A stretch of 64,000 nucleotides of DNA from contig NZ_CP060096.1 of NCBI RefSeq assembly GCF_017357865.1, positions 806,001 to 870,000 on the forward strand, read 5' to 3'. Source of the DNA: Aceticella autotrophica (GTDB lineage Bacteria; Bacillota; Thermoanaerobacteria; Thermoanaerobacterales; Thermoanaerobacteraceae). The number at the start of each line of letters is the position of its first letter. The stretch's first letter is position 1. The notes beneath the pieces are model-generated. The model did not search any database. It saw only the letters and a program-made list of their open reading frames with translations, and had not been told where the DNA came from. Positions 2,863-53,084 of the stretch are shown here, one piece after another. The position numbers and the translations under genes are program-made.

Positions 2863-2904
2863 ATTATCAATAAGCTTAGAGAAAAATCAAAAATTGAAAA
2901 TATA

Positions 2905-3010
2905 AATCTCCGAGCCTTTATGTCTGTGGGGGATTATCCTATGAGATAAAGGCCGTCTTAGGGTATTAATGGAAACGTTAATGCCTCCCGTTTGAAAAGG
3001 AGAAGGATTT
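2905..3010 (+). promoter_or_regulatory. Moco-type riboswitch (molybdenum/tungsten cofactor RNA)
   Basis: Conserved blocks of the Moco RNA motif appear in order: CTCCGAGCC near 2908, AAGGCC near 2948, a GGAAAC loop near 2971, GCCTCCC near 2982 and GAAAAGGAGAAGG at the 3' end. In this class the RNA senses molybdenum cofactor, or tungsten cofactor in variants that lack one stem. I did not fold it well enough to decide between these. A terminator hairpin follows at 3046, so premature termination is the likely output. The gene controlled is the oxyanion transporter operon beginning at 3214. Confidence 0.85.
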
Positions 3011-3045
3011 TAGTGTTTGCACAACATTTGATATGATGTTTTTTG

Positions 3046-11706: not shown

Positions 11707-11794
11707 TAATCCTTTGAGAATCCCACTATATACCTCCATTACCACCAATTTAATATAGACATACAGGTATAATACGTTTATAATGTGTAATTGA

Positions 11795-11905
11795 AATATG
11801 CCGAATCCCCAGAAAAAGGGGTACGGGGGAATTTTTATGGGGTGAATCCATTATTATGGTAGGGTGACCCTTTACCCAAACCCGTCAACTAACCTCGGAG
11901 GCAAA
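11795..11905 (+). promoter_or_regulatory. c-di-AMP riboswitch (ydaO/yuaA type)
   Basis: Conserved blocks of the class are present: GCCGAATCC, GGGGTACGGGGGAA, GGGGTGAATCC, TAGGGTGACC, and at the 3' end AACCCGTCAACTAACCTCGG. The class usually turns expression off at high c-di-AMP. A TATAAT at 11768-11773 lies just upstream. The riboswitch leads directly to the SleB-type hydrolase gene. No separate terminator hairpin with a T run was seen before the ATG, so control may act at ribosome access: the SD AGGGGG begins right after the aptamer. Confidence 0.9.
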
Positions 11906-11918
11906 AGGGGGAAAATTA

Positions 11919-17823: not shown

Positions 17824-17845
17824 TAGCACCAATCCTTTCTCTTTT

Positions 17846-17945
17846 AGCCTACGAGGTTAGTTGACGGGTTCGGTAAAGAGCAACCCTATCGTATAAAATA
17901 CGAATTCACCCCAAAATAAATCCCCCGCTTATTCAAATTCGGCAC
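17846..17945 (-). promoter_or_regulatory. c-di-AMP riboswitch (ydaO/yuaA type), minus strand
   Basis: Read on the - strand, the blocks GCCGAATTTG, GCGGGGGA, GGGGTGAATTC, AGGGTTGC and ACCCGTCAACTAACCTCGTAGGC match the class and closely resemble the + strand copy at 11795. It precedes the NlpC/P60 gene with only about 20 nt between aptamer and start codon. Confidence 0.9.
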
Positions 17946-18128
17946 ATAAATATTTTACAATAAAAAATTAATAAATGCAAATTATTTCACAACAAATTTT
18001 GATTAATAACATAACAGTATTAAAATACATGAACAGCATAAGAAAAGAGGTTTTATGATATAATGATAAAAATATGCAAATTAAATCCATAAATAATGTT
18101 GATAAAAATTTTTTGAGGAGGTTTTTTA

Positions 18129-36479: not shown

Positions 36480-36555
36480 GGTCGTATAGCTCAGCTGGGA
36501 GAGCACCTGCCTTACAAGCAGGGGGTCATAGGTTCGAGCCCTATTGCGACCACCA
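36480..36555 (+). tRNA. tRNA-Val (anticodon TAC)
   Basis: The acceptor stem GGTCGTA / TGCGACC, a TAGCTCAG D-arm, anticodon loop CTTACAA, a GGTTCGAGCC T-arm and an encoded CCA end are all present. Confidence 0.95.
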
Positions 36556-36556
36556 T

Positions 36557-36633
36557 GGCCCAATAGCTCAGTTGGTTAGAGCGCCAGCCTGTCACGCTGG
36601 AGGTCGAGGGTTCGAGCCCCTTTTGGGTCGCCA
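36557..36633 (+). tRNA. tRNA-Asp (anticodon GTC)
   Basis: The acceptor stem GGCCCAA / TTGGGTC, anticodon loop CTGTCAC, a GGTTCGAGCC T-arm and an encoded CCA are seen. It starts one base after tRNA-Val ends. Confidence 0.95.
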
Positions 36634-36639
36634 TAATAT

Positions 36640-36715
36640 GCCTCGATAGCTCAGTCGGTAGAGCAAGGGACTGAAAATCCCTGTGTCAGTGGTTCGATTC
36701 CACTTCGAGGCACCA
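36640..36715 (+). tRNA. tRNA-Phe (anticodon GAA)
   Basis: The acceptor stem GCCTCGA / TCGAGGC, anticodon loop CTGAAAA, a GGTTCGATTCC T-arm and an encoded CCA are seen. Confidence 0.95.
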
Positions 36716-36728
36716 TCAATATTTTTTT

Positions 36729-36804
36729 GCGGACATAGCTCAGTTGGTAGAGCATCACCTTGCCAAGGTGAGGGTCGCGAGTTCGAGTCTCGTTGTCCGC
36801 TCCA
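36729..36804 (+). tRNA. tRNA-Gly (anticodon GCC)
   Basis: The acceptor stem GCGGACA / TGTCCGC, anticodon loop TTGCCAA, a AGTTCGAGTCT T-arm and an encoded CCA are seen. Confidence 0.95.
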
Positions 36805-36812
36805 TTTATTAT

Positions 36813-36886
<74 letters not shown>

Positions 36887-37047: not shown

Positions 37048-37079
37048 AAGTATAAGTAGCCCACCCTTACTGCTGCAAA
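37048..37079. repeat. 32-nt direct repeat, copy 1 (left of relBE)
   Basis: The sequence begins AAGTATAAGTAGCCCACCC and ends CTTACTGCTGCAAA, and is identical over 32 nt to 37834-37865. Here TGCAGCA (37037-37043) upstream forms an inverted match to TGCTGCA inside the repeat. Confidence 0.85.
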
Positions 37080-37275
37080 ATAAGTATGATGGTATTTAAG
37101 TTTTGCATTAAACAAAAATAAATATTACTCTATTTTTGGAAGATTTTTCAACGAGGAATATTATAAAAATCCAAATAAGGTAGGCTCTAATCCTAAATTC
37201 CTTGTCCCTCCTTTTTTTTATTTTAAAATAATGTTATAATAAAAGAAGGAAATAATAAAAATGGTGGTGGTAGAA

Positions 37276-37515
37276 ATGAGTGTACTAAAAGAGAAAGCTC
37301 ATAAAATAATTGATCAATTGCCCGATAATAAAATGGCAAAAGTAATAAATATATTGATTAATATAAAGGAAATTCTAGAAAACTCTGAAGAAATAGACGC
37401 TTATGATATGCAATTAATTGAAGAAGCTGAACAAGAACGTAAAAAGGGTGAATATGTCTCCTTTGAAGAAGTTTTAAAGGAGGCAGGATTAAGTGAAAAA
37501 GACTTACAATATTGA
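37276..37515 (+). CDS. relB: RelB-like antitoxin
   Basis: The ATG at 37276 is chosen, because TGGTGGTGG (37262-37270) serves as its SD and lies inside the longer frame from 37261. The 79-aa acidic protein has an N-terminal helical dimerisation part (LKEKAHKIIDQLPDNKMAKV) and a C-terminal acidic region with EEAEQERKKGEYVSFEEVL, a common toxin-wrapping motif. It overlaps the toxin gene by 23 bp, the usual arrangement for type II modules, and would repress its own promoter at about 37232-37260. Confidence 0.8.
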   Translation: MSVLKEKAHKIIDQLPDNKMAKVINILINIKEILENSEEIDAYDMQLIEEAEQERKKGEYVSFEEVLKEAGLSEKDLQY

Positions 37516-37750
37516 ATTATCTAAAAAGGCATCAAAGTTTATATTAAATCAATCAAAAAATCAACAAAAAAGATTATTAAAAGCAATATATAAATTGCCT
37601 GAAGGTATTATAAATCCGCTTAAGGGATATGAACCTATGCAAAAAATAAGAGTTGGAGATTATAGAATAATATTTGAAATCAATGAAAAACAATCTTTGA
37701 TTCGTATTTATACCATTGGAAATCGTGGTGATGTATATAAGAAAATATAA
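37493..37750 (+). CDS. relE: RelE/ParE-family toxin
   Basis: The GTG at 37493 follows AAAGGAGG inside the antitoxin gene. The 85-aa basic protein has the RelE fold pattern: an N-terminal strand YNIELSKKASKFI, helices, LKGYEPMQKIRVGDYRIIFEI and IRIYTIGNRGDVYKKI. The RVGDYRIIFE and RGDVY motifs are typical of mRNA-interferase members that act at the ribosome. A terminator follows at 37780, and the module is flanked by 32-nt direct repeats. Confidence 0.88.
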   Translation: MKKTYNIELSKKASKFILNQSKNQQKRLLKAIYKLPEGIINPLKGYEPMQKIRVGDYRIIFEINEKQSLIRIYTIGNRGDVYKKI

Positions 37751-37833: not shown

Positions 37834-37865
37834 AAGTATAAGTAGCCCACCCTTACTGCTGCAAA
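37834..37865. repeat. 32-nt direct repeat, copy 2 (right of relBE)
   Basis: It is identical to 37048-37079, and starts 786 bp after it. This copy leads into nested palindromes at 37852-37907. Confidence 0.85.
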
Positions 37866-37960
37866 TGTAAATACATTTATATATTTACATAGAGCTTAGC
37901 AGTAAGCCTCGACACTTGCGGAGGGGAGTAGGTCATGACAGATATGACCAAGGATATTAT
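37852..37960 (+). mobile_element. Nested palindromes resembling an IS200/IS605-type end
   Basis: CTTACTGCT (37852-37860) and AGCAGTAAG (about 37899-37907) enclose ATGTAAATA / TATTTACAT. The following GCTTAGCAG, AAGCCTCG and CACTTG, then GGGGA, closely match the - strand sequence at about 52370-52415. After that comes a GGTCAT / ATGACC hairpin. Repeated subterminal hairpins of this kind are typical of IS200/IS605 ends, but no transposase gene remains. Confidence 0.4.
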
Positions 37961-38022
37961 AAAAGTGCTTGCCGATAATATCATTTGAGATTATAATAAA
38001 AATAACAGGAGAACTTATAATT

Positions 38023-38115
38023 GTGAAACGACCTGAATCATATACTGATGCTTTGGCTGGACCGAGTAAAAATATGTGGAAACAGGTTGTTAGAACAAAA
38101 ATATTGAAGAAATGA
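38023..38115 (+). CDS. Small ORF, 30 aa, uncertain
   Basis: A GTG at 38023 follows AGGAG at about 38007-38011 and encodes MKRPESYTDALAGPSK followed by NMWKQVVRTKILKK. I recognise no family. It could be the remnant of a longer gene, since the surrounding 37.9-38.15 kb stretch has no other open frame. Confidence 0.25.
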   Translation: MKRPESYTDALAGPSKNMWKQVVRTKILKK

Positions 38116-38161
38116 AAAGTCAGTAGAATTAATTTAATTAAAAAAGGAGATATTTGTTTTA

Positions 38162-51498: not shown

Positions 51499-51549
51499 AT
51501 TGTGAATATAATGAAAAAATTGAAATCAGGGAAAGGCAGAAGTGATTTT

Positions 51550-52068
51550 ATGCCAAAATTATTGAAAAAGGTACATATATCTCACAGCCAACAAGGTTTT
51601 ACGCTTGTGGAACTTATAGTTGTAGTTGCAATAGTTGCCATACTGACAGCAGTATTATTTCCCAAGCTCCTTGTTTATACTGAAAATGCCAGGGCAAGCA
51701 AAACCATGGGGGACCTTTCATCAATGAAAAGCATAGTCGAGGCGTTTGCAGCAGACCATGATTATGGCTATTATCCCACAGCCGATACAGGTAAAGCCAC
51801 CAGTGTCGGTACCGTTCTTCAGGACAAAGGGATACAGTGGTATGATGGTACAAAAGGGGAGGTAAAAGACCCATGGGGAAATCCATATTATTACGGTACG
51901 GCTCCCGACAGCAGAGGTGTGGCAAATCAGCTTTATTTGATCATATCCTTCGGACCTGACGGAAAAGAGGGCACAGATGATGACATATGGATTTCCAGCG
52001 GCGGTTCGCCGACACAAAGCAAAAACCCAAATGTGGTACCGACATCAAAGGTTGCTTCCGCCCCCTGA
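51550..52068 (+). CDS. Type IV prepilin / GspG-like pseudopilin, copy 1
   Basis: The ATG at 51550 (MPKLLKKVHISHSQQG) gives a 16-residue basic leader ending in Gly before FTLVELIVVVAIVAIL, with Glu at mature position 5. A prepilin peptidase would cut after the Gly. The 172-aa protein has the GspG-like region VKDPWGNPYYYGTAP and FGPDGKEGTDDDIW, an Asp-rich loop of the sort that binds Ca2+ in GspG. It is a paralogue of the gene at 52569. The C-terminal end is Ser/Pro/Lys-rich. Confidence 0.88.
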   Translation: MPKLLKKVHISHSQQGFTLVELIVVVAIVAILTAVLFPKLLVYTENARASKTMGDLSSMKSIVEAFAADHDYGYYPTADTGKATSVGTVLQDKGIQWYDGTKGEVKDPWGNPYYYGTAPDSRGVANQLYLIISFGPDGKEGTDDDIWISSGGSPTQSKNPNVVPTSKVASAP

Positions 52069-52430
52069 CTGCTCTCCGCCACAAGTAACGGAGGTTCTGT
52101 TTACTTGCAGGTTTCTTCTGCACTCTCAAGATGCGTTGTAGGATTAATCTGTCTATTGCATCTTCTACAACATACAGGCACTAACCTGTTTCAACAGACT
52201 TTACTATCTATACCTCTTACGAGATATTAGCGATAGCATAAGGCAATGAGTCTAATTCCCTGGGATTAACTTTATATCACCATACTGCTTATCAATTTCT
52301 TTGTTTTCTTTAATATTATTATATCATTATAACTTGTGAAAATCAAATGCTAATATAAGCATTCATCCCCGTCACAAGTGGCGAGGCTTTCTGCTAAGCT
52401 ATTGGTAAATTCCGACAGAAAACGGCATAG
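52069..52430 (-). mobile_element. Probable IS200/IS605-derived remnant (PATE-like) between prepilins
   Basis: No open frame is present. On the - strand, one end carries GCTTAGCAGAAAGCCTCG, CACTTGTGACGGGGA and an AATGCT / AGCATT hairpin (about 52335-52415), and the other end carries a similar CCTCCG, TTACTTGTGG, CGGAG hairpin (52074-52094). Similar hairpins at both ends are expected for IS200/IS605 family elements, and internally deleted forms are known. The first end also matches 37895-37925. Part of the interior may come from the guide-RNA-like 3' end of a tnpB element. Confidence 0.42.
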
Positions 52431-52518: not shown

Positions 52519-52568
52519 ATGAATTTAATACCAATATTAAAATTTAAGAAAGGTTGAGGTGGTTTTTT

Positions 52569-53084
52569 ATGCAAAGCTTATTAAAAAGGGTACATAATGT
52601 ATCACGCAATGAGAAGGGCTTCACGCTTGTAGAACTCATAGTTGTTGTGGCAATCATAGCAATACTGACAGCAGTGCTTCTTCCAAAACTTTTGGGTTAT
52701 ACAGACAATGCAAGAGAAAGCAGGGCAAAGGGTGATTTGGCATCAATGAAAAGCGTTGTAGAGGCATATGCGGCAGACCAAGGAAATGGCAAATATCCTG
52801 CTGCTGGCAATTCTGGTACACCGGGGACTATTGGACAAGTACTTTCAGAACATGGTATTAAGACACCAACAGATCCATGGGGTAACTCTTACTATTATGC
52901 AGTAAGTACAGATCAAAGTTCATATGTAATATTATCAAAAGGGAAAGGCGGAGCTGGAGCTGCAGAAACTATTTATGTGACAGGGAGCACATCGCCGAAA
53001 AAGGGTGATCCTAATCCAAGTGCAACAGGTAGTACACCAGCACCTGGTTATCCTTCAGACGGTACTTTAGCACCGATACAATAA
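52569..53084 (+). CDS. Type IV prepilin / GspG-like pseudopilin, copy 2
   Basis: The ATG at 52569 follows GAGGTGG. A 17-residue leader (MQSLLKRVHNVSRNEKG) precedes FTLVELIVVVAIIAIL with Glu at mature position 5. The 171-aa protein contains TDPWGNSYYYAV, as in the first copy, and ends in a Pro/Ser/Gly-rich tail (PSATGSTPAPGYPSDG). It is very similar to copy 1 over the first 70 mature residues and diverges afterwards. A strong hairpin at 53100 follows, so it is probably made as its own abundant mRNA. Confidence 0.9.
   Translation: MQSLLKRVHNVSRNEKGFTLVELIVVVAIIAILTAVLLPKLLGYTDNARESRAKGDLASMKSVVEAYAADQGNGKYPAAGNSGTPGTIGQVLSEHGIKTPTDPWGNSYYYAVSTDQSSYVILSKGKGGAGAAETIYVTGSTSPKKGDPNPSATGSTPAPGYPSDGTLAPIQ

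Follow-up and report, generated by a model that had tools for sequence, protein, structure and literature searches.

A transposon-derived element of 340 bp that contains no open reading frame (ORF) retains, in its right part, a sequence that folds as a covarying RNA, as a TnpB guide (omega/re)RNA should; this RNA is a candidate guide. The element lies within the window (the whole 64,000-nucleotide stretch of Aceticella autotrophica DNA analysed here), and its left end shares a 25-base block, GCTTAGCAGNAAGCCTCGNCACTTG, with a second copy at 37.8 kb. Comparison with relatives supports the identification of this block as the left end (LE) of an IS200/IS605-type transposon. The account that we consider probable is that of a single family inserting after TTAC: the short copies would be deletion derivatives of the kind known as PATEs, carrying an omega/reRNA for TnpB supplied in trans, and the 37.8-kb copy would be an inert chimeric relic.

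The block occurs exactly twice in the window, at 37894-37918 on the + strand and at 52375-52399 on the - strand, the latter within the left end of the 340-bp element. Both copies were recovered without mismatch in a 25-mer search that allowed up to three, and 100 dinucleotide shuffles returned a mean of 0.00. As the original prediction had described, GGGGA stands a few bases 3' of the block in each copy, and the small hairpin that follows differs between the two (GGTCATgacagATATGACC in the 37.9-kb copy; GAATGCTTATATTAGCATTT, on the - strand, in the 52.3-kb copy). A degenerate form of the 25-mer has 16 matches in the whole 2.27-Mb host genome (G000, a single contig of 2,267,618 bp), whereas the reversed pattern, as control, has 0. 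The 16 comprise seven of the eight left ends present in the tnpB-only and 340-341 bp copies described below, three right ends, five bare ends (at 843.9 kb, which is in the window, and at 877, 1229, 1324 and 1517 kb) and one CRISPR spacer (293 kb); the left end missed by the scan, at 979 kb, has a more regular palindrome and a diverged sequence.

Elements with this left end are of three kinds in the host genome: tnpB-only copies, with an ORF for a 483-aa TnpB-like protein and without tnpA (n = 4, at 572, 979, 1173 and 1990 kb); ORF-less copies of 340-341 bp (n = 4, at 339, 492, 858 and 2211 kb, the third being that in the window); and the bare ends. The intact layout, LE-tnpA-tnpB-right end (RE), is found in relatives, where a left end of this kind precedes an intact Y1 tnpA, itself upstream of tnpB, in genomes G017 and G002 and in JASGMM010000053 (L069) and JAOARV010000033 (L070), the left end of the last being more diverged than in the other three; at least two metagenome-assembled relatives, namely the latter two, are thus represented among the matches listed. 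The proposal that the two copies are ends of a single IS200/IS605-type family had been made to depend on whether any transposase in this or related genomes is flanked by the block, and these four tnpA-tnpB pairs bear the proposal out. Protein searches gave four matches among 20 genomes of the family (three of full length, the host included, and one 50-residue fragment), five at 1e-50 among 37 genomes of the class, and nine, mostly distant, among 398 genomes drawn from the phylum. The TnpA of G017 is 77% identical to that of G002, 79% to that of L069 and 42% to that of L070. No Y1 (HUH) transposase lies between the same ends in the host genome, and since the Y1 ORFs there that come nearest to the G017 TnpA are 33% and 30% identical to it (plus a 39-residue stretch at 41%), the cognate transposase is gone from this genome; the final bases of tnpA survive 5' of tnpB in the 979-kb copy. 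A tnpA at 1518 kb was considered as the owner of the 1517-kb end and was ruled out, the end facing away from it and the ORF having an internal stop. (The host also carries a different IS605-like pair at G000:C1:1671422-1673086, with other end hairpins, in which a Y1 tnpA and a TnpB with a PF07282 match are divergently oriented.)

The ends conform to the IS200/IS605 pattern, and the target resembles that of IS608. TTAC is found at the outer end of 12/12 left ends and GTCAG terminates 14/14 right ends; TTAC is repeated at the start of the right flank in 0/12 cases, so that there is no target duplication, and the subterminal hairpins of LE and RE have the same orientation. (Taken in isolation as DNA, the LE and RE hairpins of the 52-kb element fold no better than shuffles, with z of -0.92 and -0.49.) The target of IS608 is likewise given as TTAC, and the RNA of ISDra2 is described as lying at the 3' end of tnpB and in the right end, as in this family (PMC8612924). 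In contrast to IS608/IS605 and ISDra2, however, the present family has no cognate tnpA in the genome, a divergent TnpB without CxxC, and short copies without any gene.

The TnpB-like protein matches the NCBIfam model guided_TnpB (NF040570) over nearly its full length (E 7e-16 and 3e-19), with 58.5 and 69.4 bits against a cut-off of 100; the claim is therefore held to TnpB-like, related over nearly the full length. With Pfam at 0.001 nothing was found on this protein, the best match being OrfB_IS605 at E 0.093, and a PDB sequence search found no TnpB. An AlphaFold model of the TnpB from L069, built together with one homologue, is too poor to use, at pLDDT 43. D, E and D residues are invariant in 7/7 homologues, and are read here as the RuvC motifs. 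A CxxC zinc finger is typical of ISDra2-type TnpB; inspection by eye of four TnpB-like sequences found no CxxC. Purifying selection acts on the protein (dN/dS about 0.1): values are 0.10-0.11 between the 979-kb tnpB and the other three host copies and 0.09-0.10 between the four host copies and G017, and, with few changes to count, 0.16-0.31 among the three near-identical copies. It is probably an active nuclease, as predicted from these features, of a divergent TnpB clade.

The ORF-less element in the window occupies 52065-52404 on the - strand, with its TTAC target at 52405-52408, and is one of the four near-identical copies, which lie at unrelated sites. These are identical at 327-336 of 340 positions (96-99%) and are therefore young. 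They have near-terminal palindromes, no inverted terminal repeats and no target duplication, and are too short for a transposase, all as in the definition of PATEs in PMC3119063; most likely, then, they are PATE-type derivatives, a known kind. No DNA like the element was found in the phages and plasmids searched. What it retains is the left end, a promoter-like sequence and the whole 197-nt region formed by the tnpB 3' part and the right end, about 20 nt of the tnpB end being kept before the scaffold in the host short copies. The promoter-like sequence, TTGATT-N17-TATAAT (52318-52346, - strand), lies in the left end and agrees with the consensus at 10/12 positions, as do or better 34/500 shuffles; boxes at a similar distance are found in six element types, each individually weak (34, 22, 16, 65, 54 and 225 of 500 shuffles as good). 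The insertion used a GTAA that holds the stop codon of a prepilin-like ORF (51502-52068, + strand; T2SSG and N_methyl matches), and the stop codon now comes from the right end of the element; the prepilin protein has the same last residue with the element as with the flanks joined. A second, paralogous prepilin-like ORF with the same matches (52554-53084) is adjacent to the first, with the element between them.

The region of interest for a guide function is the omega/reRNA-like scaffold at 52065-52261 (- strand), which spans the tnpB end region and the right end. Twelve elements were extracted and that of L070, the most divergent, was set aside; the other 11, from four genomes, were aligned over the 197 nt that begin directly behind tnpB and end in GTCAG. 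The aligned structure has 50 predicted pairs, with two-sided changes in 15 at prediction and in 16 by the named-structure count; the latter (16/50) compares with a shuffled mean of 5.7 (sd 1.5; 0/500 shuffles as high), in an alignment where near-identical copies make up four of 11 rows. Paired cells amount to 97.6%, against 36-47% in slid controls, a control that is lenient because the structure derives from the same alignment. The covariance model built from it, R1, scores the window's scaffold at 243 bits, this sequence being in the training set, and has 10 matches in the host genome, eight of them also training sequences: the four tnpB copies, the four short copies, a fifth tnpB-less scaffold that has no left end (342903-343100) and one weak match. 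Across the class, 9/37 genomes have matches, two of them weak (E 0.001 and 0.004). No Rfam family matched the block or the scaffold in the window at gathering thresholds; at E 0.1, L039, L058, L063 and L064 gave three matches, none above the family's gathering score. The alternative in the original prediction, that the two copies are omega-RNA-like scaffolds left without a nuclease gene, therefore holds for the 52-kb copy, with the qualification that the scaffold is the 197-nt right half, the shared block being the left end; it is not supported for 37852-37960, since R1 finds no guide-RNA scaffold at the 37.8-kb copy.

A separate derivative is found in genome G012. This complete 301-bp element consists of TTAC, the left-end hairpin, TTGAAG-N17-TATAAT, directly thereafter the RNA, and GTCAG, a junction unlike that of the host copies with their remainder of tnpB. 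It is identical to the host short copies at 233-237 of 299 positions. Because the junction differs and identity is lower between the two kinds than within the host, it is most likely, as judged from these sequences, that the gene was lost at least twice, with the promoter-like boxes and the RNA kept each time. The protein searches of the family and class genomes gave no TnpB-family match in G012, so the RNA appears to be orphaned there.

A way in which such elements might persist is suggested by work on ISDra2, whose TnpB is described as using an RNA made of the tnpB end, the right end and about 16 nt of flank, as needing the target motif as its TAM, and as proposed to cut the emptied site, with repair restoring the element; separate plasmids have also been used to co-express TnpB and reRNA (PMC8612924). 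By extension, the short elements would be PATE-kind deletion derivatives that transcribe an omega/reRNA from the left-end promoter, the guide being the stretch of host DNA immediately beyond the right end and hence each short copy's own flank. TnpB from the tnpB-only copies would load this RNA in trans and, after excision, cut the emptied site (TTAC plus guide), whereupon repair would restore the short element. Mobilisation would once have depended on the cognate TnpA acting in trans, before that protein was lost from the genome. Retention of its transposon by TnpB was reportedly the subject of a 2023 paper in Nature. We put forward only tentatively, with rather more doubt than belief, the full claim that the short elements are trans-acting guide-RNA genes which survive by guiding a TnpB made elsewhere, have at least two origins in this bacterial family, and have terminal-only scars of which the host CRISPR array, too, keeps a record.

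The most serious rival to this claim, whose chances we put only just short of even, is that the derivatives are passive: ordinary PATEs without guide function, in which the RNA region survives only because it belongs to the right end or because little time has passed since the deletions. Such a reading fits the youth of the four copies at 96-99% identity, and it fits a PATE of Halanaerobium that has the same layout, with 28 nt of LE, the last 58 nt of tnpB and 160 nt of RE (PMC7290912). Against it, terminal-only elements of ~52 bp are described as possibly still mobile (PMC3119063), so that mobility does not obviously call for a long right end, and the promoter-like boxes and the RNA were kept in two separate deletions.

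PATEs as described for Haloquadratum walsbyi and Halanaerobium hydrogeniformans are likewise short and transposase-free, with IS605-type subterminal palindromes and no target duplication, and both forms in question, the LE-tnpB end-RE layout and the terminal-only form, are in print (PMC7290912, PMC3119063). The present elements differ in that the right part is a covarying RNA, the promoter-like boxes are kept, a tnpB under selection resides in the same genome, and separate derivatives occur in two genera. Among IscB systems there are standalone omega-RNAs, guide-RNA scaffolds without an adjacent nuclease gene; the likeness to these is in the lack of a nearby nuclease gene, whereas here the scaffold is of the TnpB type and sits within a transposon with both ends. 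ORF-less IS605 elements that keep a promoter and a guide-RNA scaffold were found described nowhere in the open-licence literature searched, and may have been reported elsewhere. What is new is the covarying scaffold and promoter-like boxes in ORF-less copies, their origin at least twice, the divergent TnpB without CxxC, and a scar-like CRISPR spacer. These observations link PATEs, long described from DNA alone, to the guide RNAs of TnpB. Should the ORF-less copies guide TnpB in trans, the long right end of such miniatures would be explained, and a single 2.27-Mb chromosome, with four short copies and their four flanking guides, four tnpB copies and no cognate transposase, would offer a natural multi-guide test of the TnpB-retention model.

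The copy at 37.8 kb is a terminal-only remnant of ~48 bp (37889-37936, + strand, the bounds being taken from alignment to other ends), with its TTAC target at 37885-37888 at normal spacing. By position-weight scores (profiles that left out three of the four short copies as near-duplicates), its 5' half is LE-like (LE5 24.6 vs RE5 -14.9) and its 3' half RE-like (RE3 20.4 vs LE3 7.8). The solo end at 1517 kb is similar (27.0 LE vs -22.2 RE on the 5' side, 14.2 RE vs 8.3 LE on the 3' side); the 877-kb end is left-end-like on both sides, and the 1324-kb end right-end-like on its 3' side. Such a split is what deletion between two near-identical hairpins would leave, in keeping with the 52-bp terminal-only elements of Haloquadratum, described as arising by repeat-mediated deletion (PMC3119063). 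The 37.8-kb copy would accordingly be a product of recombination between its near-identical left and right hairpins, now inert. Less likely, the block is instead a left end cut short, from a copy that has diverged. In favour of this, the left ends at 572 and 1173 kb likewise run on into GAGTAG, and as a left end the 3' half still scores above most background (6/4000 as high); as a right end, however, that half scores higher.

Nested palindromes had been predicted at 37852-37960, and the fold agrees, 37845-37960 as single-stranded DNA reaching -19.5 kcal/mol where shuffles average -8.88 (z -4.76; 0/200 shuffles as good). Its long hairpin (37852-37906, + strand) pairs half of a REP-like repeat with left-end sequence. 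That repeat, at 37834-37865 (+ strand), has the GTAG foot and only half of the palindrome, and an exact 32-bp copy of it lies at 37048-37079; with this GTAG-led half palindrome, repeated in the genome, the left part of the 37.8-kb structure resembles the GTAG REP/RAYT systems described in PMC3733652, although the shared block itself is outside the repeat. That the block belongs to a REP-like palindrome family moved by RAYT-type transposases, and is not an IS605 end, is highly improbable, for although the left part does consist of this half palindrome, with a fuller form elsewhere, and intact Y1 ORFs of the 249 aa type are in the genome, the 25-mer match greatly exceeds chance expectation, TTAC stands at the same distance as at the other ends, and the fuller REP-like palindromes (401, 420 and 425 kb) are all without the block. 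The intact Y1 ORFs of RAYT-like length are at 1339 and 1783 kb. The 32-bp direct repeats flank a ParE-type toxin-antitoxin pair (37261-37750), and five tRNA genes (36480-36883) lie just upstream of this region, a possible integration hot spot.

On its other side the remnant is followed by the degraded later part of an antitoxin-like gene (37940-38118, + strand; 81-83% DNA identity, frame broken), which is intact at 1229 kb in the host genome and in G013. An ORF start at 38023 belongs to this degraded gene and was ruled out as a transposase start. The left flank does not fit a simple empty site; since it is not the start of the antitoxin-like gene, further rearrangement must have occurred here. 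About 100 bp upstream of the intact gene in the host there is a diverged bare end (G000:C1:1229269-1229293, - strand).

A possible trace of the element ends is found in the host CRISPR array (G000:C1:288501-295036), which has at least 98 spacers. Spacer 69 (36 nt, 293044-293079) agrees with the left end at 572 kb at 28/36 positions and with both chimeric solo ends at 27/36; no other of the 98 spacers exceeds 58%, and the best of 300 shuffles of spacer 69 attains 67%. A pattern scan of viral contigs for the scar found none. Against a typed LE/RE composite the score of spacer 69 rises to 31/36, so that foreign DNA may have carried terminal-only ends. Elsewhere in the window are a molybdenum riboswitch (2896-3018) and two c-di-AMP riboswitches about 6 kb apart (11789-11918, + strand; 17830-17954, - strand).
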